A DNA stretch of 64,000 nt from Streptomyces sp. YIM 121038 (GTDB taxonomy: Bacteria > Actinomycetota > Actinomycetes > Streptomycetales > Streptomycetaceae). The translations under genes and the position numbers were made by a program. Shown piece after piece: positions 28,316 to 43,637 of this stretch. The notes beneath the pieces are model-generated. The model was given only the letters and a program-made list of their open reading frames with translations. It was not told the DNA's origin and searched no databases. Position 1 is the first letter of the stretch. Each line of letters opens with the position of its first letter. The DNA is taken from positions 9,670,001 to 9,734,000 of the forward strand of contig NZ_CP030771.1 in NCBI RefSeq assembly GCF_006088715.1. Reading direction: 5' to 3'.

Positions 28316-30055
28316 TCAGCCCCGCGCCCCGAAGTTCTGCGTCCACCACGGGCCGCCTTCGCCCTCCTCGACCCCCGTGCCCAGCTCCTTGAAGGCGCAG
28401 TTGAGGATGTTGGCGCGGTGGCCCTCGCTGTTCATCCAGGCGTCCATCACCGAGGCGGCGGTCTGCTGGCCGCGCGCGATGTTCTCGCCGTAGGTGCTCC
28501 ATTTGTAGCCCGCGGCCGTGATGCGCTGCCCCGGGTCGGTGCCGTCCGGCGAGGTGTGGTCGAAGTAGTTGCGCGACCGCATGTCGGCGGAGTGGCGCTG
28601 CGCGGCCGTGGCCAGCTTGCTGTTGTGGGTGAGGGGACCGCACCCGGCCTTGGCGCGCTCGGCGTTGACCAGGCTGAGCACCTGCTGCGCGTTCGACCCG
28701 GAGGGTGCGGGCGGCGCGGGCTTCTTGGTCGTGGGGCGCGGCGCCGCCTTCCGGGAGGGTGCGGGCCGCGGCGGCTCGGCCGTCTTCTTCCTGCTGGCGC
28801 GCGAGGGGCTCGCGGTCGGCGAGGGCTTCTTGGTCTTCGTGGCCTTCGACGGCGACGCGGACGGGGACGGCGACCGGCTCGGCTCCTCCGTGACCGTCGG
28901 CGACGCGGAGGGCTCGCTCGACTCCAGCGCCACCGCCGAGCCCTTGTCCGACGGGCCGGGCGAGTCGTCGGCGAGCTGCATGACACCGGCGAGCGCGGCG
29001 ATCGCGGCCACACCCGCGCCCGCACCGACCGCCTGCCGCCGCCGACGCACGCTGCGCCGCCCCTGCCGCAGCCGCGCGCGGGAGCCCGGGGTACCCGTCG
29101 AGGAGAGGGGGGTCACGTCAGGGGCCCCACCGTCCCGGAGGCCGACATCAGCAGAAGGCGCCGTTTCGTCCTGATGCATGGCTTGTGTGCTCGCCTCACC
29201 GTCGCCCGCGTACGCGACGGACGCCATGGCGTCGGCCCCGGCGCCCGCGCCGGAGAAGTGTCCGGCCCCCATGACCAGCAGCGGCGGCACGAGAGCGATC
29301 CCGGCGAGCAGCCCCTCCGCGGGCGTGAGGCGCGCGCCGAGGCCCCCGCAGGCCGCGCAGTCACGGGTGTGCCGCACCAGGCGCTTGCGCCACAGCGCGG
29401 ACGGCCTGCCGTCCCAGCCCGACGCCGCCTGCGCGAGCACGGGGCAGCGCGGCTCGGCGGCCAGGGCGCGCACGACCACGCGTGCCGCCTCCAGCTGGGC
29501 CTTCATGCGCTGCACCCGGACGGCGGTGTGCTCGGGCGTCAGCTCCAGGGCCGCGGCGACCTCGCCGCGGGACAGCTCACCGGCGGCCTCCAGCCACCAC
29601 AGCGCGAGCAGCTCCCGGTGGTCGTCGTCCATCCAGCGCGTGGCCCGGGCGACCTCCTTGCGCTCCCCGGACAGACCGAGCCGGAGGATCGTCACGTCGG
29701 TGAAGTCCCCGCCCGGGTCCGGGACGTCGTACGCGTCCTGGAGGCCGCTGTCGACCGGCGCGGGCCGCTGGTGGCGACGGGTCTCGTTCATGGCGATGGC
29801 GACGAGCCAGGAGCGGAACGAGTCCGGGTCGCGCAGGCCGGGAAGCCCTCTGAGCATCCGGACCATGACGTCCTGCACCAGGTCGTCGACGTCGGCGTGC
29901 CCGCTGAGGGCGCGGCCGACGATGTTGTACACGAGCGGCAGGAACGCGGCGACCAGCTCGTCCTGGGCCCGCGCGTCCCCGGCCCGGCCCGCGACGACGA
30001 GAGCGGTGAGGCCGGTGCCGTCCCCCTGCTGCGGCTCCCACTGATCGTGCTGCAC
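28316..30055 (-). CDS. ECF sigma factor fused to zinc anti-sigma motif, membrane segment and CAP domain
   Basis: 579-aa fusion. Residues 30-98 are sigma region 2 (DDLVQDVMVRMLRGL, SFRSWLVAIAMNETRR). Residues 138-190 are sigma region 4. HTRDCAAC (229-236) fits the HxxxCxxC motif of zinc anti-sigma factors. RRSVRRRRQ followed by GAGAGVAAIAALAGVMQL (343-361) is a positive-inside membrane anchor. Residues 362-453 are a Ser/Pro/Lys linker, and 455-579 a CAP/SCP domain (FDHTSPDGT, YGENIARG, NSEGHRANIL). The sigma part would be cytoplasmic and CAP extracellular; an earlier hydrophobic stretch (248-266) leaves the topology slightly uncertain. GTG 30055 follows AGGAG. Confidence 0.9.
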   Translation of the reverse strand: MQHDQWEPQQGDGTGLTALVVAGRAGDARAQDELVAAFLPLVYNIVGRALSGHADVDDLVQDVMVRMLRGLPGLRDPDSFRSWLVAIAMNETRRHQRPAPVDSGLQDAYDVPDPGGDFTDVTILRLGLSGERKEVARATRWMDDDHRELLALWWLEAAGELSRGEVAAALELTPEHTAVRVQRMKAQLEAARVVVRALAAEPRCPVLAQAASGWDGRPSALWRKRLVRHTRDCAACGGLGARLTPAEGLLAGIALVPPLLVMGAGHFSGAGAGADAMASVAYAGDGEASTQAMHQDETAPSADVGLRDGGAPDVTPLSSTGTPGSRARLRQGRRSVRRRRQAVGAGAGVAAIAALAGVMQLADDSPGPSDKGSAVALESSEPSASPTVTEEPSRSPSPSASPSKATKTKKPSPTASPSRASRKKTAEPPRPAPSRKAAPRPTTKKPAPPAPSGSNAQQVLSLVNAERAKAGCGPLTHNSKLATAAQRHSADMRSRNYFDHTSPDGTDPGQRITAAGYKWSTYGENIARGQQTAASVMDAWMNSEGHRANILNCAFKELGTGVEEGEGGPWWTQNFGARG

Positions 30056-30417
30056 GGCACATCTCCTGTCCTGATCGCTGCGTGGTGCTGAGTACGCCCA
30101 CTGCATCGGAGATCCTGCGGGGCGCGGGGGGATAACAGAAACCGCGCAGATCACTTTGAGACCCGAGTCACGTCACGCGGTGCGAGACCGGAGTCGCTTC
30201 GGGTGACGCGTGCGAGGCCTGGGACGAGCCGGCTGGCACGCGGGGTGCGCGTCGGAACGTGTCGGCCGACGGGGGTTGTCCCCACCCCCGCCGCACCGGC
30301 CAGCCGGATGGCCGCGCCGGGCCGCGTGCGGGACCGTGATGCCGACGCGGATCGCGTCACGCGCCCGCGTCACCGCACCCCTTCACGCCACCCGCCCCTT
30401 ACCCGGAAGGCTCCACC
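30056..30417. other. Intergenic region between divergent sigma-CAP and S41 peptidase genes
   Basis: About 360 bases without a credible gene. It must contain both divergent promoters, but I find no clear -35/-10 pair on either strand. A string GAGACC/GAGTC recurs imperfectly near 30159-30193. Confidence 0.5.
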
Positions 30418-31803
30418 GTGCGCATCGCCACCGCCACCGCCGTCGTCCTGGCCCTCGCCGCGGGCGTCGCGCCGAGCGCCGTCGCGAAGGACCGTCCCGC
30501 CACCGGCGAGGAGCGGCCGACCGTCGACGGCTACTGGCGCATGGACGGCTACGGCACCGTCCTCGCGCTCCGGAACGGAACCTTCCAGGAGTACCAGACG
30601 ACCGCCGTGAGCTGTCTCAAGGGCGAGTCGGCCCGACGCACGGGCGCCGGGCGCTACACCACGCGGGACAGCGCCGTAGTCACCGTGCGCACCGGGCCCG
30701 ACGGGCAGCGCGCGACCCTGAGCTTCGACAGCTCCGTGGGCCACCGCGCCCTGCGGCGCCTCCAGGCGCTGCCGGACGACTGCACGCGGCAGGGCCCGAA
30801 GGGCCCCCGGGCGTCCTTCGACGTGTTCTGGCAGTCGTTCGCGGAGAACTACCCGTTCTTCGCGGCCCGGGGCATCGACTGGGACGCCGTACGCGACCGC
30901 TACCGGCCCCAGGTGCACGCGGACACCACGAGGAAGGAACTGTTCTCGATCCTCAGCCGGATGGTGAAGCCGCTGTACGACGCCCACGTCGCGGTCATGG
31001 ACGGCGACCGCGTCTACGCCGAGGTCCGCCCCGGCACGGTCAACCCCACGAAGAAGCTGGACGCCAAGGTCAAGAAGTTCGTCGAGAGGCGCGACCTGAA
31101 GCACGCCACGTACCGCAAGGACTTCGCGGGCGGCCGGATCACCTACGCCGATCTGCCGGGCGGCCAGGGCTATCTGCGGATCTCCGGCTTCGCCGGGTAC
31201 GTGCCCGCGGGCGCCCCCTTCTCCGCCCACGCGGCAGAGCTCGACCGGGCGCTCGACGCGATCCTCACCAAGGACCGCACCCGGCGGCTGAAAGGCCTCA
31301 TGATCGACCTGCGCGTCAACGGCGGCGGCTCCGACGTCCTCGGCATCCGCATCGCCGAGCGCCTCACCGACACGCCCTACGTCGCCTACTCCAAGCGGGC
31401 CCGCAACGACCCCGCCGACCCGGGCGAGCACACCCGCCCCGAGCCCATCCGCGTCCGCCCGGCCGACGCTCCCCGCTACACCGGCCCGATCGCCGTGCTG
31501 ACCGGCGGCTCGACCGTGAGCGCGGGGGAGACCTTCACCCAGGCCCTGATGGACCGGCCCGGCAGGGTCGTCCGCGTCGGGCAGGCCACCCAGGGCGTGT
31601 TCTCGGACGTCCTGGCGCGCAACCTCCCCAACGGCATGGTCGCCTGGCTGCCCAACGAGGAGTTCCTGACCCGCACCGGCCGCACCTTCGACGGCACCGG
31701 CGTTCCGCCGCACCTGAGCGAACCCGTCTTCACCAAGGAGGAGTTCGCCAAGAACCGCGACTCGGCCTTCGACCGCGCCCTGCGCGTCCTGAAGGCGCAC
31801 TGA
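30418..31803 (+). CDS. Secreted S41 family (tail-specific-like) serine peptidase
   Basis: 461-aa exported protease. The signal peptide ends at about residue 23 (AVA-KD). A tricorn/TSP-like helical region (FDVFWQSFAENYPFFAARGIDWDAV) precedes the S41 catalytic fold: GLMIDLRVNGGGSDV, the nucleophile segment LTGGSTVSAGETF with Ser near residue 367, and QATQGVFSD. No PDZ domain is evident. GTG 30418 follows GGAAGG. It probably processes extracellular peptides. Confidence 0.9.
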   Translation: MRIATATAVVLALAAGVAPSAVAKDRPATGEERPTVDGYWRMDGYGTVLALRNGTFQEYQTTAVSCLKGESARRTGAGRYTTRDSAVVTVRTGPDGQRATLSFDSSVGHRALRRLQALPDDCTRQGPKGPRASFDVFWQSFAENYPFFAARGIDWDAVRDRYRPQVHADTTRKELFSILSRMVKPLYDAHVAVMDGDRVYAEVRPGTVNPTKKLDAKVKKFVERRDLKHATYRKDFAGGRITYADLPGGQGYLRISGFAGYVPAGAPFSAHAAELDRALDAILTKDRTRRLKGLMIDLRVNGGGSDVLGIRIAERLTDTPYVAYSKRARNDPADPGEHTRPEPIRVRPADAPRYTGPIAVLTGGSTVSAGETFTQALMDRPGRVVRVGQATQGVFSDVLARNLPNGMVAWLPNEEFLTRTGRTFDGTGVPPHLSEPVFTKEEFAKNRDSAFDRALRVLKAH

Positions 31804-35187: not shown

Positions 35188-35667
35188 GCCGCCGAGCCTA
35201 GGGCGCGCGTGCGCGCACCGGCGAACGGATTCCGCCGGGCGCACCGCTCCGCGCCCGCGCACCGATCCGGCGCCGCGCCCGGCGCCACCCCCGGCTCGCC
35301 CAATGGGGTGAGCTGCGCGTATGGAGCGCCGCGCGCCCCCGCCGGGCGGGGATCCTGGGACGGAAGCGGCGTGCGGGCAGGAGCTGGCATGAAGGCCGAA
35401 ATTGACAGCGACGACAGCCTCCGGCGTGCGATAGAACCATGGATCACACATCCCAGGGCGCATCTCACCTCGCTTCAGTGGCGGCTCAGCCACGCCTCGC
35501 TCCGTCGACGGCGCGGGCACGCCACCCCCTCCCACCACACGCCAGGCGGGTCGGCCGTGACGCCGACGTCCTGACGCACCTCCCTCCCTCACTTTCGCCC
35601 TTCCCGCCACTTCCGCGACACACCATGCCGCCCTACGGGGTCCTCGGACCCGGCAACGGGGGAACCC
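35188..35667. other. Intergenic region upstream of the giant gene pair
   Basis: 480 bases without a credible gene. It holds the leaderless sirtuin promoter at its left edge and, near 35402, a TTGACA hexamer without a well-spaced -10. The promoter of the giant pair must lie here. Frames that read through it from the right are extensions of the 39363 gene's frame and have no start signal. Confidence 0.5.
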
Positions 35668-38600
35668 ATGTCCGTGCCACCGCCTCCGCAGCCCTACCGT
35701 CTGCTGCGCGCCACCGACCTCCTCGACCTCCACTTCCGCTTCCTGGGCCTGCGCCTGGAGAAGCCCCTGCTCGAACCCCGCCGACTGGTCCGCCAGAAGC
35801 CGGACCAGCCGGGCTACCTCGTGGTCACCTTCGGCCCCCAGCACGTCGTCGAGCGGGCGTTCTTCGAGATCACCCCCGGCATCCCGGAAGGCGCCTCCCT
35901 CGCGGGGGACGAGCCGCACGAGCCACCGCCCGTGGCCTCGCGCATCGGCGGCCGCAGCGTCCTGGTGTTCGGCGTGGGCGCCCAGGCCTTCGTCACCTAC
36001 ACCGAGAAGGGCCTCCTCGACGCGATGCGGGAACTCCCCCTGCGCGTCGTGGACGCCGCCAGGGAACCGGCCGCCGCGGCCGGCCTGCACCACGCCGTGA
36101 CCGAGGCTCCCGACAACGTCTTCCACGCCCTGCGCCTGGCCCGCACGGTGGCGGAGCTCGCGGCGCGGCACGGCACCGACGCGCCCGTCGACGCGGGGCT
36201 GCTCGCCGCCCCGGCCGCGGACCTCGCCGCCGGAGCCCGGCCGGAGAACCCGCTCGCGAACCCGGACGACCCGAAGACCGGCATCGAACTGCCCTACCGG
36301 CTCCTGCTGTCACCACCCCAGGGCGCCACCTGGTCGCACAGCAGCGAACTCGCCGACCCCACGGGCCGCGTCGAGCTGTGGCACACCCGGCTGCCCGCCA
36401 CCGGCGCCCGTGCCGTCTGGACCCGCGACCCCGGCTTCGACCCCGCGAGCCCGCACCCGCTGCCCCCCGACGGCAACGAGTTCACCATGGCGATGACCCC
36501 CGAGGACCGGTCGTCCGTGGTGCACCTGACCTCGAACACCGGTCTTCCGGGCGGTTTCCGGCCGACACCGCTCACCGGCGACAACCTCATGCTGTCCAGC
36601 ATGGGAGGCTGGCTCGACTCCCTCGGCCGCTGGGACCGGCCGCCCGAGGGATTCCAGGTCACCCAGTGGCGCCACCGCGCCTCCCTCGGCCGCGACCACT
36701 ACGTACGCGTCATGTACCGGGGGCGGCTCTTCCCCTTCGGTCACCTCGCGGACCTCGTGAAGGTCACCGAGCGCAAGTTCGACCACAAGCGGCCGGACAA
36801 CGCGGCCTACCTCAACCAGCGGTTCTTCATCATGGTGCGCGAGCCGGTCCGCCGCTACGGAGCGCCGGAGGACACCGAGGAACTGAAGCGCCTGCGCCGC
36901 CGCTTCCCGTTCACCAGCGTCCGTCTGCTCACCCTCGTCACCCCCGACCTGCACGAGCCCCGCCCCATCCCGGGCCTGGCCACCGACCCCCAGCACCCCA
37001 ACGAGAAGCTCGCCTTCTTCCCGGAGACCGACGGCGACGTGCCCTTCCAGTTCCAGGTGAGCATGACCGACCTGGACGGCCGGCTCGTGGAGTTCCGTAC
37101 GCCCATGGCCTTCGTCGGCAAGAACCTGTACGGGAACCGGGCCGACGTAGGGACGATCATCACCTACTACACGCCGGACGAGACGAAACCGAGCCCCACC
37201 GAGCCCGACCTGACCCAGGGCGCGGTCACCCGGGCCCTCGCCGACGTGCGCGGCCAGGCCGTCGCCTACGCGCCGAGCAACAAGCCCGACGACACGACGC
37301 TCTCCACCGGACGGCTGATCTGGGGCGCCGCGCTCGCCCCGGAGCCGGTCGCCGCCGAAGAGCCCCTGTTCCTGCCCACCGTGCGCTGGGCGCGAGCCGT
37401 CGTGCCCGCCCTCAGCCGCTTCGGCACCGGCGTGGGCGGCGACCAGCCGAAGTCGGTGTTCCACCCCGAGCCGTACGTGCGCGACGCCTTCACCGACGCC
37501 AACAAGGGCCAGCTGTTCATCGAGCTCGTCGAGCCGTTCCCGCTGACCTTCAGCTCGGCAGGGCAGAGCGCCGGAGCCCTCGCCCAGCCGAACTTCTCCG
37601 TCGCGGGCCTGTCCCGGCTGACCGGCCCGGTCGCCGCCGTCCCCACCACGGCCCTCGGGCCCGCCGCCGACCCGGCCGACAAGTGGGTCAACCTCCTCCA
37701 GGGCCGGTTCAACCCCCTCGACTACTTCAAGCAGATCGCCGACGCCAAGCTCTTCGGCATGTTCCCGCTGTCGGCGATCCTCAAGGAGGCCGGCCTCGAC
37801 AAGCTCAAGGCGCCGAACTTCCTCACGGCGACCGTCAACGCCGTCACCGGGTTCCTCAACGACCTGCGCGGTCTGCGCGACACCCTGGCCGCCGTCCAGG
37901 AACAGTTCCCGCAGACCGCCGACCGCGTCATCCGCGTCGTCGACACCGCGACGCGCTTCGTCGAGGTGCTCCTCGCCTACATCACCAGCAATCTGGAGCA
38001 CGCCCCCAACCCCACCCGCATCGAGGACGTCGACAACGCCTTCCGCGCCTTCGCCGACGCCCTCAGGGAGCTGCGGGTGGGCCTGCCCGCCGGGGTCGAG
38101 ACCGGTGTGCGGCAGCTGCTCACCCGCATCGCCGAGGCGACCGCCACGTACGAGAACGGGGCGGGCGAGGTCATCGCGCTGCGGGACGCCATCAAGATGG
38201 CGGCGCTCGGCGCCAAGCTCCCGGACGTCGTCAACTCCCGCATCCAGTGGCAGCCGGACATCAAAGCGTGGACGCCGGGCAGGACGGACCCTCCGGAACA
38301 CGAGAAGGACGCCGTCTTCTGGCCCATCGGCAAACTGAGCCTCGTCGCCGACCTGCGCGGCTCACTGCGGCCCGACGTGCCCCAGGCAGCCGACGTCACC
38401 TGCACGCTGGGCCGCTTCAAGCTGCGCATGGTCCCCGGATTCGAAGCGATCGCCCTGGACTTCGAACGGATCCGCTTCACCATGCGCGCGGGCCAGAAGC
38501 CCGACGTCGAGGTGAAGTTCGGCGGCGTCGACTTCATCGGGCACCTGGAGTTCATCCAGACCCTGCGCAACCTCATCCCGCTCGACGGCTTCAGCGACCC

Positions 38601-39360
38601 GCCCGCCCTCACCGTCGACGCCTCCGGCATCCACGCCAACTACTCGATGCAGCTGCCCAACGCGGCCGTGGGCGTGTTCAGCCTGGAGAACCTCTCCCTG
38701 AACGCGATGCTCTCGGTGCCGTTCATCGGGAACACCCCGCTCCAGGCGGGCTTCTCCTTCTGCCGCCGCGAGGCACCCTTCCGCCTCACCGTGTCGATGC
38801 TCGGCGGCGGCGGCTACTTCGGCATCGTCCTGAACCCCAAGGAGATCGCCGTCCTGGACGCCGCCATCGAATTCGGCGCCGCGGTGTCCATGAACTTCGG
38901 CGTGGCCAGCGGCAGCCTGTCCGTGATGGCGGGCGTCTACTTCCGGCTCGAACTCGTCGACGTCACGCCCGACCCGGGCAGGCCCGACCAGAAGGAGACC
39001 CGCCCCAGCGTCAAACTCGTCGGCTACCTCCGCGCCCGCGGCGAGGTCGACGTCCTCGGCATCGTCTCCGCCTCCATCGAGCTCTACCTCGAACTCGGCT
39101 ACGAAGGCGGCTACGCCGTCGGTCGCGCCCGGCTCACCATCAGCATCGAGATCGGCTTCTTCTCGAAGTCCGTGACGATCCGCTGCGAGAAGAAGTTCGC
39201 GGGCAGCGGCAAACTCACCGGATTCGCGGGCGCCGCGGCCGAACCGGAGCTCACACCGCCGTCCTTCGCCGACCTCATGTCGCCGTACACCGACCCGGTC
39301 ACGGGCGCCCGCGTCGACCCCGTCCTCGACTACTGCACGGCCTTCGCGGAGGTGGACTGA
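35668..39360 (+). CDS. Giant protein A of a two-gene unit, unknown function
   Basis: 1230 aa; no signal peptide and no membrane helix, so cytoplasmic or exported by an unusual route. I recognise no family. Visible: a Pro-rich start, a mixed N-terminal half, a helical section around residues 680-850 (NDLRGLRDTLAAVQEQF, VDTATRFVEVLLAYI), and a strongly beta C-terminal third (about 890-1200) of alternating hydrophobic strands, such as GSLSVMAGVYFRLELV and ARLTISIEIGFFSKSVTI, resembling an elongated beta-sheet or groove. ATG 35668 follows ACGGGGGA. The stop overlaps the ribosome site of giant protein B, so the two are made together. Confidence 0.85.
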   Translation: MSVPPPPQPYRLLRATDLLDLHFRFLGLRLEKPLLEPRRLVRQKPDQPGYLVVTFGPQHVVERAFFEITPGIPEGASLAGDEPHEPPPVASRIGGRSVLVFGVGAQAFVTYTEKGLLDAMRELPLRVVDAAREPAAAAGLHHAVTEAPDNVFHALRLARTVAELAARHGTDAPVDAGLLAAPAADLAAGARPENPLANPDDPKTGIELPYRLLLSPPQGATWSHSSELADPTGRVELWHTRLPATGARAVWTRDPGFDPASPHPLPPDGNEFTMAMTPEDRSSVVHLTSNTGLPGGFRPTPLTGDNLMLSSMGGWLDSLGRWDRPPEGFQVTQWRHRASLGRDHYVRVMYRGRLFPFGHLADLVKVTERKFDHKRPDNAAYLNQRFFIMVREPVRRYGAPEDTEELKRLRRRFPFTSVRLLTLVTPDLHEPRPIPGLATDPQHPNEKLAFFPETDGDVPFQFQVSMTDLDGRLVEFRTPMAFVGKNLYGNRADVGTIITYYTPDETKPSPTEPDLTQGAVTRALADVRGQAVAYAPSNKPDDTTLSTGRLIWGAALAPEPVAAEEPLFLPTVRWARAVVPALSRFGTGVGGDQPKSVFHPEPYVRDAFTDANKGQLFIELVEPFPLTFSSAGQSAGALAQPNFSVAGLSRLTGPVAAVPTTALGPAADPADKWVNLLQGRFNPLDYFKQIADAKLFGMFPLSAILKEAGLDKLKAPNFLTATVNAVTGFLNDLRGLRDTLAAVQEQFPQTADRVIRVVDTATRFVEVLLAYITSNLEHAPNPTRIEDVDNAFRAFADALRELRVGLPAGVETGVRQLLTRIAEATATYENGAGEVIALRDAIKMAALGAKLPDVVNSRIQWQPDIKAWTPGRTDPPEHEKDAVFWPIGKLSLVADLRGSLRPDVPQAADVTCTLGRFKLRMVPGFEAIALDFERIRFTMRAGQKPDVEVKFGGVDFIGHLEFIQTLRNLIPLDGFSDPPALTVDASGIHANYSMQLPNAAVGVFSLENLSLNAMLSVPFIGNTPLQAGFSFCRREAPFRLTVSMLGGGGYFGIVLNPKEIAVLDAAIEFGAAVSMNFGVASGSLSVMAGVYFRLELVDVTPDPGRPDQKETRPSVKLVGYLRARGEVDVLGIVSASIELYLELGYEGGYAVGRARLTISIEIGFFSKSVTIRCEKKFAGSGKLTGFAGAAAEPELTPPSFADLMSPYTDPVTGARVDPVLDYCTAFAEVD

Positions 39361-39362
39361 CC

Positions 39363-42300
39363 ATGGTGGACAGCATCCGATGGACCGTCCTCCCCGACGG
39401 CGTCATCGAGGGCGACACCGTACGCGTGTCCGTCCTCGTCACCCCGAACCTGACCGGCATCACCCAACTCGGCCAGTCCGAGGCGTTCATCCGCTGGCCC
39501 GAGCGGCTCGCCACCCTGCTGGCCGGGCTCTGGTTCGAGTTCGACAAGCCCGAACACACCTACGTCACGCAGCACGAGCCGACGGGCCACCACCCCCCGG
39601 CCGACCTCGACACGTGGAAGGCCCTGTTCAAGGACACCACCCTGGTGTCCCCGCCGGAGCAGGCGACCGCGCTGGCCGCCGAGGCACCGGACACGCTGCG
39701 CTCCTTCCCCGGCAAGCTGGTGCACGACGAGATCACCGACGTGTACCGGGCCGTCGCCGTGACCACGACGCGCAGCCGCCTCGGCGGCGAATGGGCCCGC
39801 CAGGAGAGCGTCCTGTGCGAGGAGCCGCCGACGGACCACCGCGGCTGGGAGACGCCCGCCCTGTATCTGATGCCCGACATCATCACCAGCGAAGTCCTGG
39901 CCATGGGCCGCAACCTGGCCAAGGGCTACGAGGCGGTGAAGCTGGCGTTCAACCAGCACAGCGACGTCCCGCGCGCCGCCGCGGACGACCTCGCTCCCCG
40001 GGTCATGGACCGTACGACCCCGCTGTACACCAGCGAGGAGTACAAGCACATGCTGCCCCTGGCCGAGACCGCCCTGTTCTACGACCGGCCCAGGCCGTCC
40101 GCCGAGGCCCTGGCCGCCGAGGAGGAGGAAGAGCACCGCGTCGACTTCCACGAGGCGTGCGGTCTGCTCGGCGACTACCCGGAGCTCCAGCGCAGGTTCG
40201 GCCTCGTCGTCGACCGCCGGTTCACGCTGCCCGCGAGCATCCCCGACGGGGCCCGCGTCCGGGTGCGCTTCGACAACGGCGTGCCCCACGCCGACGATCT
40301 CAACGCCGAGCCGCTCCGCCCCTGGACGACCCTCCGGATCGTCCGGGGCAGCGTCTTCGAAGCGGGCGCCGCCACCACCGGCCTGATCACCGGCAGGATG
40401 CTGAACCTGGGCGCCCCCGACACCTGGCACCTCACCGAACTGGACGTGGACGGGGCGGCGCTCAAACACCTCGACTACGCCCGCACCATCGCGGCCCTGC
40501 ACGACCGTGACGTGCCGTCGAGCCCCGGCTCCGTCGCCCACCAGGTCGCGGGCACCGCCACCCCGGCCGCCCGCGGCGGCGGCATCACCCTGATGCACAC
40601 CGTCCGCGACCACTACCTCGCCGGGCAGATCGGCACCGACCTCAAGCGCCGCACCAACGGCGAAGTGGCCGAACTGACCGCGGAGAACCTGGTCCGCGGC
40701 TACCGCGTGGACATCGGCACCGTCGACCCGGCCACCGGAGCCGTCCGCCAGTGGCAGTCCCTGCTGCGCCGCCGCGGCCGCTACACGATCCGCTGGCCCG
40801 GACAGCAGCCCATCACCCTCCAGGTCCGCCCCGACGAGGGCCTGGTGCGCGCCAGCGCCGTGACGGCCGTCTCCGCCACCTCCAAGGTGCTCTACGGTCA
40901 CCAGGCCGTCTGCGGCTGGCACGGCTGGAGCCTCGCCGCGCCCCGGCCGGGCCGCACCATCGGGCTCGACAACGAGCCGGAGGCACCCGCCCCGCCCGTG
41001 TCCCCCGACGTGCCCCTGGAGACCCGGTTCACGGCGGAGCCCGGCTCGCTGCCCGCCCTGCGCTTCGGCCGCACGTACCGCATGCGCGCCCGCGTCGTCG
41101 ACCTCGCGGGCAACGGCCTCGACCACACCGCGAGCACCCCCGACGCCGTCCGGTCCGACGCGATCACCTACGGCCGCTGGGAACCCGTCCCGCAGCCCGT
41201 GGTGGTGCCGCTGCTGCCGTTCAACGAGGGCGAGTCCACCGAGCGCATGGTCATCCGCAGCACCGTCACCGACGACGGCCGCCAGATCTCGCCCGACGAG
41301 TACGTCCTGTGGCGCTCCGACGTCCCCGACCACAAGGCGCGCTCCGACGTCGACGGCCTGGACCGCCAGTACAAGCCGATCGCGGAACGACACGTGGCAC
41401 CGCCGAAGACGGCCCTGCAGATGGCCGAGGAGCACGGCGTGTTCGACGCCGCCTTCGGCGCCACCAAGCCCGACCGGGTGCGCGCGGAGTACTTCGCGGC
41501 CGCCTCCCGCGAATCCGGGTCCTTCCTGGACACCGTCGTCCGCGACCCGCAGTGGCCGCACCTCCCGCACGACCTGCTGCTCGAAGGCTCCATCCACATC
41601 GCCAAGCACGACGTGCACGACCCGCTGGCCGTCACCCCGCTGCCGCTCGCGCGCCGCGGCGCGGGGCTCAAGCGCGGCGAGTTCGTCGTGCACGACACCC
41701 ACCAACTGCGCCTGCCGTACCTCCCGGACGTCCTCGCCGAGGGCGTCATGCTGCGCGGCCTGCCCGGCGACCGGGAGAACCGCAAGATCCCCTTCCCGGG
41801 ACCCTGGCCGCAGGCCCAGCCGTTCAGGATCCGCATCCGGGAGGGCAGCGGCGAACCGCACTGGGACGGCCTCACCCAGCGCGTCCTGGAGGTGTACCTG
41901 CCCAAGGGCGAGATCGCCACGGTCCGCCTGAGCTGCTATCTGGACCCGGCGAAGCTCCCCCTGCTGCGCCAGTGGGGGCTGCTCACCGAGTCCTCCTTCT
42001 GGAAGGACCTGCGCGAGCGGGACAGGGCGTTCCTCACCCGGGCCACCGCCGACGGTGAGAACTGGATGCTCACGCCCTGGACCGAGGTCACGCTGGTGCA
42101 CGCGGTGGAGAAGCCCGTCCAGCCGCCCCGCCTCGCCGAACTCAGCGCCTTCCGGACGGCCGAGCAGACCGCCGCCCACATCGCCATCCAGGTCACCAGC
42201 CACGCCGAGAGCACCGGCCACGTCGAGGTGGACGCCCGCTGGAGCGAGTGGCTCGACGACGTCACCCAGCCCGCGCCCACCCGCGTCGACGGCCACAAGC

Positions 42301-43502
42301 AACTGGAGGACATCACCCTCGCTTACGCCGACGACGAGGAACGGGTCACCCGCACCCACGAGTTCGGCGACACCCGGCACCGCAACGTCCGCTACACGCC
42401 GACCGCCGTCACCCGCTTCCGCGAGTACTTCCACCCCACCATCACCGAAGACCGCGCCAACGTCACCCGCCTCGGCCCGACCGCGGCCCCCCTGCCGGTG
42501 CCCAGCTCCCGCAGGCCCGAGCCGCCCGCCGTCGCCTACGCCGTACCCACCCTGCGCCACGACCGCAGCGTCGACCAGCAGCGGGCCACGGTCACCCAGC
42601 GCCGCCGCCCCGCGGGCCTGCGCGTCTATCTGAACCGCCCCTGGTACTCCTCCGGCGACGACGAGATGCTCGCCGTGGTGCTCGACACCGGCACCGCCCT
42701 GCCCGACACCGTCGCCACCCGCTGGGGCGTCGACCCCGTCTGGTCCGACACCACCGTCCTGCCGCGCCCGCAGGCCACGCACTTCCCGAACCCGGAGAAG
42801 CGCCCGACCGGTCTGCGCCTGCCCGGCTCACCCGACGCGGAACCGGTCCTGGTCGACGCGGCGGCCTTCACCCCCGCGTACGACACGGCACGCAGGCTCT
42901 GGTACGTCGACATCGACGTGGACTTCGGCGGCGGCGCGGCCACCGCCTACTTCCCCTATCTGCGCCTCGCCCTCGCCCGCTACCAGCCGTACGCGGTCGA
43001 CCCGCTGCACCTGTCGAAGGTGGAACGGGCGGAGTTCGCCCAGCTCCTGCCGCCGCGCACGCTCACCGGGCGGCGCGAGGGCAACCAGCTCACGGCCACC
43101 CTCACCGGCCCGGCCACGTACAACGAACTGGGTGAGACGAGCGGCACCGGCGTCACCGCCGCGGCCGCGTGCCGCCGGGTCACGCTCACCCTCCAGAGCC
43201 GGGCGCTCGCGGGGGAGGACGACATGGACTGGAAGGAGCTGGGCACGCCGGCGGACCTGGTCTGCCGTGCCGACGGCACGGGCTTCGCCTGGTCCGGCGG
43301 CATCGCGGCCCCCACCGGTCAACCCCTCACCCTGTACCGGCTGCTGGTCCAGGAGCACGAGCTCTACCGCACCGACAAGGACACGGCCACCGACACGGTC
43401 ACCGTCAACGGCGCCCCGGTACCGGCCGCCCGGCGCCTGGTGCACGCCGACTACTTCGAGCTGACGGTCGGTCTGCTGGGCCGGATCGACTTCAAGCTGT
43501 AG
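39363..43502 (+). CDS. Giant protein B of a two-gene unit, unknown function
   Basis: 1379 aa from ATG 39363, whose ribosome site GGAGGTGG spans the end of gene A; the stop-to-start gap is two bases. The frame stays open for another 3.9 kb upstream, but that part is a shadow of gene A. No signal peptide or membrane helix. The sequence looks like many beta domains: an Ig-like strand pattern near 566 (FGRTYRMRARVVDLAGN), YLPDVLAEGVMLRG near 785, and a C-terminal FN3-like segment. An acidic patch AAEEEEEH occurs near 255. No catalytic motif is visible. Structural or binding role is inferred only from composition. Confidence 0.85.
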   Translation: MVDSIRWTVLPDGVIEGDTVRVSVLVTPNLTGITQLGQSEAFIRWPERLATLLAGLWFEFDKPEHTYVTQHEPTGHHPPADLDTWKALFKDTTLVSPPEQATALAAEAPDTLRSFPGKLVHDEITDVYRAVAVTTTRSRLGGEWARQESVLCEEPPTDHRGWETPALYLMPDIITSEVLAMGRNLAKGYEAVKLAFNQHSDVPRAAADDLAPRVMDRTTPLYTSEEYKHMLPLAETALFYDRPRPSAEALAAEEEEEHRVDFHEACGLLGDYPELQRRFGLVVDRRFTLPASIPDGARVRVRFDNGVPHADDLNAEPLRPWTTLRIVRGSVFEAGAATTGLITGRMLNLGAPDTWHLTELDVDGAALKHLDYARTIAALHDRDVPSSPGSVAHQVAGTATPAARGGGITLMHTVRDHYLAGQIGTDLKRRTNGEVAELTAENLVRGYRVDIGTVDPATGAVRQWQSLLRRRGRYTIRWPGQQPITLQVRPDEGLVRASAVTAVSATSKVLYGHQAVCGWHGWSLAAPRPGRTIGLDNEPEAPAPPVSPDVPLETRFTAEPGSLPALRFGRTYRMRARVVDLAGNGLDHTASTPDAVRSDAITYGRWEPVPQPVVVPLLPFNEGESTERMVIRSTVTDDGRQISPDEYVLWRSDVPDHKARSDVDGLDRQYKPIAERHVAPPKTALQMAEEHGVFDAAFGATKPDRVRAEYFAAASRESGSFLDTVVRDPQWPHLPHDLLLEGSIHIAKHDVHDPLAVTPLPLARRGAGLKRGEFVVHDTHQLRLPYLPDVLAEGVMLRGLPGDRENRKIPFPGPWPQAQPFRIRIREGSGEPHWDGLTQRVLEVYLPKGEIATVRLSCYLDPAKLPLLRQWGLLTESSFWKDLRERDRAFLTRATADGENWMLTPWTEVTLVHAVEKPVQPPRLAELSAFRTAEQTAAHIAIQVTSHAESTGHVEVDARWSEWLDDVTQPAPTRVDGHKQLEDITLAYADDEERVTRTHEFGDTRHRNVRYTPTAVTRFREYFHPTITEDRANVTRLGPTAAPLPVPSSRRPEPPAVAYAVPTLRHDRSVDQQRATVTQRRRPAGLRVYLNRPWYSSGDDEMLAVVLDTGTALPDTVATRWGVDPVWSDTTVLPRPQATHFPNPEKRPTGLRLPGSPDAEPVLVDAAAFTPAYDTARRLWYVDIDVDFGGGAATAYFPYLRLALARYQPYAVDPLHLSKVERAEFAQLLPPRTLTGRREGNQLTATLTGPATYNELGETSGTGVTAAAACRRVTLTLQSRALAGEDDMDWKELGTPADLVCRADGTGFAWSGGIAAPTGQPLTLYRLLVQEHELYRTDKDTATDTVTVNGAPVPAARRLVHADYFELTVGLLGRIDFKL

Positions 43503-43518
43503 CGAGCCGGCCGCCGCC

Positions 43519-43556
43519 AGGGGCCCGGGCCGCGGGGGAACGCGGCCGGGGCCCCT
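43519..43556. terminator. Terminator after the giant gene pair
   Basis: Arms 43519-43534 and 43541-43556 pair over 16 bases with one mismatch around a GGGGAA loop. It separates the giant pair from the flavin hydroxylase. Confidence 0.8.
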
Positions 43557-43637
43557 CGCAGCACGTCGGGAAACGGCCACCACTGCTGCTACTCTCTGTC
43601 GTCGCATGGTCATCGTGAGCAACTTGCAGAGGTGTAC

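Follow-up and report, generated by a model that had tools for sequence, protein, structure and literature searches.

A coupled pair of giant proteins in Streptomyces sp. YIM 121038 and its relatives carrying twin-arginine signals

Two very large adjoining genes, here called A and B, were analysed in a window of 64,000 nucleotides from Streptomyces sp. YIM 121038 (contig NZ_CP030771.1, positions 9,670,001 to 9,734,000 of the forward strand). The two genes are kept together in nearly all loci compared, and because many relatives of A carry a twin-arginine translocation (Tat) signal at their start and B carries none, Tat export with a hitchhiking B is the simplest reading of the pair. We propose with moderate confidence that the two proteins make up a single folded complex, which is exported by Tat on the signal of A, takes B along and works at the cell surface or outside the cell. 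The two would be obligate partners, produced from a single message and probably assembled in the cytoplasm before the large folded complex is exported. An amphipathic beta-sheet in A would suit a membrane, B itself or a hydrophobic ligand, and B would offer a row of immunoglobulin (Ig)/fibronectin type III (FnIII)-like domains for contact or display. Export of the copy in the window is left outside this proposal, because A has no signal in that branch.

Gene A (35668–39360, +) is an open reading frame (ORF) of 1230 amino acids (133.6 kDa) and gene B (39363–43502, +) one of 1379 amino acids (152.7 kDa), with a combined mass of 286 kDa. Two bases lie between the TGA of A (39358–39360) and the ATG of B. 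The ribosome binding site for B, GGAGGTGG (39348–39355, +), is found within the last codons of A, 7 nt upstream of the ATG of B; an earlier note made from the sequence had placed such a site near this stop, which is correct, and had described the two as overlapping, while the site in fact ends just ahead of the stop. A strong hairpin with no T run (43519–43556, +) follows B and is likely to be a transcription terminator. The region 43500–43575 folds at −52.6 kcal/mol (z −3.6), and none of 200 shuffles was equally stable. The codon-position GC content of A (0.70/0.48/0.95) and B (0.72/0.50/0.96) fits real genes at this GC. A and B are real, tightly coupled genes, each present as a single copy in the genome of 11.1 Mb, and the terminator-bounded giant pair of the earlier note was recovered at its positions. 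An ORF of 2687 amino acids (35439–43502) was rejected as a gene, as the frame of B is kept open across A by the high GC. No membrane helix was found in A or B (maximum 19-residue Kyte-Doolittle values of 1.35 and 0.94) and no signal peptide on either window protein by eye, in agreement with the earlier note.

The same note had recognised no known family, and library scans gave the same result. Neither A nor B had a significant match in Pfam, NCBIfam, PHROGs or PDB sequences, and at E ≤ 10 chance-level matches alone were returned (Pfam E 0.34; PHROGs E 0.21 and 0.23; PDB E at least 0.7). PADLOC models of anti-phage defence gave no match for A or B at E ≤ 1, and no sequence match linked either protein to large lipid transfer proteins (PDB members, Pfam). 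Weak Pfam apolipoprotein and baculovirus PEP matches on relatives of A were set aside, since they lie far below cut-off in an apparently helical part. Among the titles returned by a literature search that included locus tags, none concerned the A-B family.

At E ≤ 0.001, protein searches identified 134 proteins related to A and 810 related to B, and the best 120 of 134 and the best 120 of 810 were listed. Among these listed matches, names are "hypothetical" or "uncharacterized", save for two B proteins called "Baseplate protein J-like" in UniRef. The top ones, again among those listed, are from Streptomyces (up to 97% identity), followed by Nonomuraea, Amycolatopsis, Crossiella, Thermopolyspora and Egicoccus and by metagenome bins labelled Pyrinomonadaceae, Thermoleophilia and Acidimicrobiia. 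Plasmid records extend the family to Cupriavidus, Diaphorobacter, Rhizobium and Sinorhizobium, and also to Ruegeria, Ensifer, Bradyrhizobium and Agrobacterium. Named records place the pair in Actinomycetota and Pseudomonadota, and an Acidobacteriota-type bin (P0084) adds a third phylum. B was present in 16 of 150 sampled Streptomyces genomes, the window's own counted, and the pair is therefore patchy within the genus. A was present in 13/396 genomes of the phylum, in 7/66 of the class of genome G247 and in 3/36 of the order of genome G009, and these samples also take in the window's own genome where it is in range.

Pairing was compared in 44 loci with reference sets of A and B (the window, L001–L009, L036–L054 and L062–L076), covering Streptomyces, other Actinomycetota, Rhizobiales and Burkholderiales, with L071 coming from the same genome as L004. 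A lies upstream of B on the same strand in 43 of the 44 loci, and B follows immediately in 42. The sole non-adjacent pair is that of L064, in which the genes are about 1.4 kb apart and the interval holds a 520-amino-acid open frame (L064:7672–9234). This leaves aside the very divergent locus L054, where B was not detected and the adjoining ORF is B-like by eye alone; there, a very divergent A-like C-terminal domain (L054:9745–14294) is read in a different frame from the preceding long ORF and may be either a separate gene or the result of a frameshift. A is split into two ORFs in L039, B runs past the contig end in L046 and L048, and the pair is partly broken in L065 and L076. One extra pair outside the 44 was found (L082), and the order A then B also occurs in three annotated records (L083, L084 and L088) of a branch with giant A proteins. 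Over 36 loci, omitting short, split, duplicate and divergent ones, the similarities of A and of B were correlated (Pearson 0.97, Spearman 0.63, without a control pair). That A and B are coupled partners of one unit, as had been suggested before, is well supported by these sequence comparisons. The two findings that the earlier note had named as speaking against its view, a match to a characterised family and genes that do not co-occur, did not materialise: no family was matched, and the genes co-occur in 43 of 44 loci.

The export signals were found in relatives. On pC of Sinorhizobium meliloti, an A of 3052 amino acids and 331 kDa begins with a textbook Tat signal and is followed by a B of 1766 amino acids and 192 kDa, giving 523 kDa together. 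This A clears the NCBI TAT_signal_seq cut-off (20.6 vs 16.7 bits), and hhalign links both proteins to the window family (A E 6e-52, B E 1e-28), by which the two pairs are judged to be homologous. A search with this A yielded 60 proteins of 2433–3319 amino acids (query included; named ones mostly Mesorhizobium), and this giant branch has a Tat-like start in 39 of 60 by a fixed rule and in several more by eye. Signals whose hydrophobic stretch contains N or Q escape the rule, and calls made by eye are marked as such throughout. Two of the 60 are named "twin-arginine translocation signal domain-containing protein" by NCBI. Distant full-length A proteins of ordinary size (P0080–P0122) passed the rule in 8 of 34 cases, and P0104 is clear by eye. 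Among the 44 loci, A has a Tat start in L041, L042 and L048 by rule and in L049 and L053 by eye, as it does by eye in the extra locus L082; in L009 the rule fires falsely within the first domain. No B had a Tat-like start in 43 loci when the rule was read from each B start. In a set of 116 B proteins it fired on two (P0175 and P0211), both times within conserved domain sequence by eye.

Further hints at the surface came from neighbouring genes and domains. In S. meliloti, tatA lies about 50 bases after B (Pfam TatA_B_E E 2e-9), and a second tatA after B was recognised by motif in Ensifer. In L049 of an actinobacterium (G247), B has 1909 amino acids with three cell-wall-binding (CWB2) repeats at its end (E 2e-46), next to an A that is Tat-bearing by eye. 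Among the roles proposed in the earlier note, it is the surface role that gains from the Tat signals of relatives and from CWB2 on this one B.

Several results weigh against an exported complex at the surface. Among 74 close full-length relatives of A, the Tat rule fired once, inside the first domain, and not on A of the window. The rule also fired on 11 of 173 neighbouring ORFs, those listed being mostly membrane- or exported-looking. The NCBIfam Tat model was passed by one of ten A relatives, with three below cut-off and six without a match, and P0084 fell below the Pfam TAT_signal cut-off (16.0 vs 22.7 bits). In the giant branch, tatA adjoins B in two of seven records, and the five others have none. 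CWB2 was found on one of five B proteins scanned with Pfam and is absent from those of the window, S. meliloti, P0150 and P0170; no Pfam match to a cell-wall anchor domain such as CWB2 was obtained on B of the window. It is also absent by eye from B of L053 and L082, which belong to the genus of L049, and no precomputed Pfam domain was shown for the best 120 of 810 relatives of B. Size is another difficulty, as a review gives 150 kDa as the cargo size that Tat can handle (PMC6708511), and the mass of A and B exceeds this figure both in the window (286 kDa) and in S. meliloti (523 kDa). As A of S. meliloti alone has 331 kDa, the proposed export is testable and, if right, surprising.

Structure models gave an idea of the domain types. 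The parts of A were mapped onto the window protein from the model of its Crossiella ortholog P0078. According to this model, A would consist of an N-terminal beta-rich part (residues 1–686; 35668–37725, +; P0078 model residues 1–590), a helical part of varying length in relatives (residues 721–846; 37828–38205, +) and a region of long antiparallel amphipathic beta-strands that is rich in conserved columns (residues 854–1176; 38227–39195, +). Between the faces of these C-terminal strands, the difference in hydropathy reaches about 5 units. In B, residues 915–1049 (42105–42509, +; model residues 736–870) are modelled as an FnIII/Ig-like beta-sandwich, and the structure model supports B as a chain of Ig/FnIII-type beta domains. 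The long beta region at the end of A and the stacked beta domains of B, both predicted in the earlier note, are supported by these models. In S. meliloti (L042:1744–10902), the helical part of A between two conserved blocks spans about 900 residues, which is several times that of the window by eye. P0120, and perhaps A of L064, have N-terminal tryptophan-rich repeats that resemble a lectin-type propeller by eye, with no such Pfam match. Some Streptomyces B proteins (L065, L066, L067 and L076) end in long His-, Asp-, Glu-, Arg- or Gly-rich tails, which possibly bind metal.

Other explanations were considered. In Streptomyces and its close kin, A and B might form a cytoplasmic complex with a structural, scaffold or storage role, and export might have arisen separately in other branches, which we regard as a serious possibility without considering it probable. 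In its favour, neither protein has a signal peptide in the window or in the close branch. A of the window starts with MSVPPPPQPYRLL, which runs directly into the first conserved strand, and the 31 further open codons upstream contain no Tat signal either. However, Ig/FnIII-type domains in a row are a typical mark of exported proteins, and in four of the nine named Streptomyces loci of the close branch (L003, L004, L005 and L008) a trypsin-like, secreted-looking protease gene lies about 10 nt after B. It was recognised by its motifs and a signal-peptide-like start by eye, with a Pfam Trypsin E of 0.11 in one of the four. Export signals in several branches would also be explained more easily as one ancestral state. 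For a storage role, which the earlier note had listed, no support was obtained.

The earlier note had also thought of a lipid-carrying assembly, for which a weak fold resemblance is what was found. A might be a lipid carrier like the large lipid transfer proteins of animals, its C-terminal amphipathic sheet cradling lipid and B serving as a partner subunit. The top Foldseek matches of A, microsomal triglyceride transfer protein (MTP; E 7e-6) and lipovitellin (E 2e-5), followed by ApoB100 (E 2e-3), would fit this, as would the shared rough order of beta, helix and beta-sheets and the unlike hydropathy of the strand faces. We nevertheless consider it unlikely, as the top two matches have TM-scores below 0.1 and a root-mean-square deviation above 30 Å, and the helical part of A is a short helix bundle where the large lipid transfer family has a long helical superhelix. 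The rows shown by VIA-align for A are barrels (porins, LptD) with no lipid transfer protein there, which does not exclude one. These barrels could instead point to a two-component pore or barrel with the C-terminal sheet of A inserted in a membrane. This is quite improbable: Streptomyces has no outer membrane, the supporting Z-scores are modestly above the 7 to 8 typical as best values for models without a clear match, and Pfam, NCBIfam and PHROGs scans gave no toxin family for A or B. Parts of a phage tail or injection machine, also among the roles first suggested, are hinted at by the two B relatives named "Baseplate protein J-like domain-containing protein" in UniRef and by T5 and DT57C tail-fibre chains among the VIA-align matches of B, next to the weak tail-fibre matches of A in a viral fold library. 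Yet that library gave no more than these and weak porin matches, and the UniRef name is unsupported, as both bearers match no Pfam family; neither A nor B matches a PHROG significantly or a baseplate family, ten scanned neighbours in the window include no tail or sheath family, and a viral-contig scan yielded one locus. An injection-like role is accordingly held to be very improbable.

No neighbour gene common to different branches was seen in the gene lists compared, which were not subjected to a systematic test; some branches have the trypsin-like gene, some have small genes called C (L051, L052, L062 and L064) and some have tatA. The small genes form a separate family of one to three tandem copies immediately 3' of B (L051:16244–17194, L052:14781–17259, L062 and L064), encode a cysteine-rich, zinc-ribbon-like C-terminus in some cases by eye and have no significant Pfam match. 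In the window, one ORF (28316–30154, −) matches both sigma-70 region 2 (PF04542) and a CAP/SCP domain (PF00188). Relatives of this ORF and of the S41 peptidase at 30418–31803 both lie near A and B in L001, L002, L006, L007 and L008. On an Agrobacterium plasmid, dpdE-H and dpdJ adjoin the pair (L088:14688–26504); going by their names, we take these genes to be a DNA-modification system.

If Tat export of the complex is true, a 331-kDa A, possibly with a 192-kDa B, would probe how wide the Tat passage opens. We suggest tentatively, and with some doubt, that the pair stands for a class of giant two-subunit complexes not described before, which at 250 to more than 500 kDa lie far beyond the cargo size cited for Tat. 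Tat would move them whole and folded, sometimes with a TatA of their own, and they would then form a device at the surface that holds lipid or another hydrophobic partner on its amphipathic sheet. In the libraries searched, this widespread giant pair with hundreds of relatives has no name, domain or function. The Tat signals offer the first testable cell biology for the family, and annotators gain two new families with a clear rule (A then B).

Compared with known systems, A shares with large lipid transfer proteins (MTP, lipovitellin and ApoB) a weak Foldseek resemblance and the order of beta, helix and amphipathic beta, whereas it differs from them in the lack of a sequence match, the very low TM-score and the short helical part. 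B resembles arrays of FnIII/Ig and macroglobulin domains (complement C3/C4, alpha-2-macroglobulin and adhesins) as a chain of beta-sandwich domains, but the matches that fit well are to single domains, each about 100 residues long, and longer ones superpose poorly. With CWB2 surface proteins (PF04122), B of L049 has the three terminal repeats in common, which B of the window and the other Pfam-scanned B proteins do not have. PaoABC of Escherichia coli is described as a Tat hitchhiker complex and a redox enzyme, an aldehyde oxidoreductase (PMC4273604). In contrast to PaoABC, A and B are far larger and carry neither a known enzyme domain nor a cofactor domain, and the window copy has no signal; like Tat hitchhiker complexes, many relatives of the pair carry a Tat signal on one partner and none on the adjoining other.

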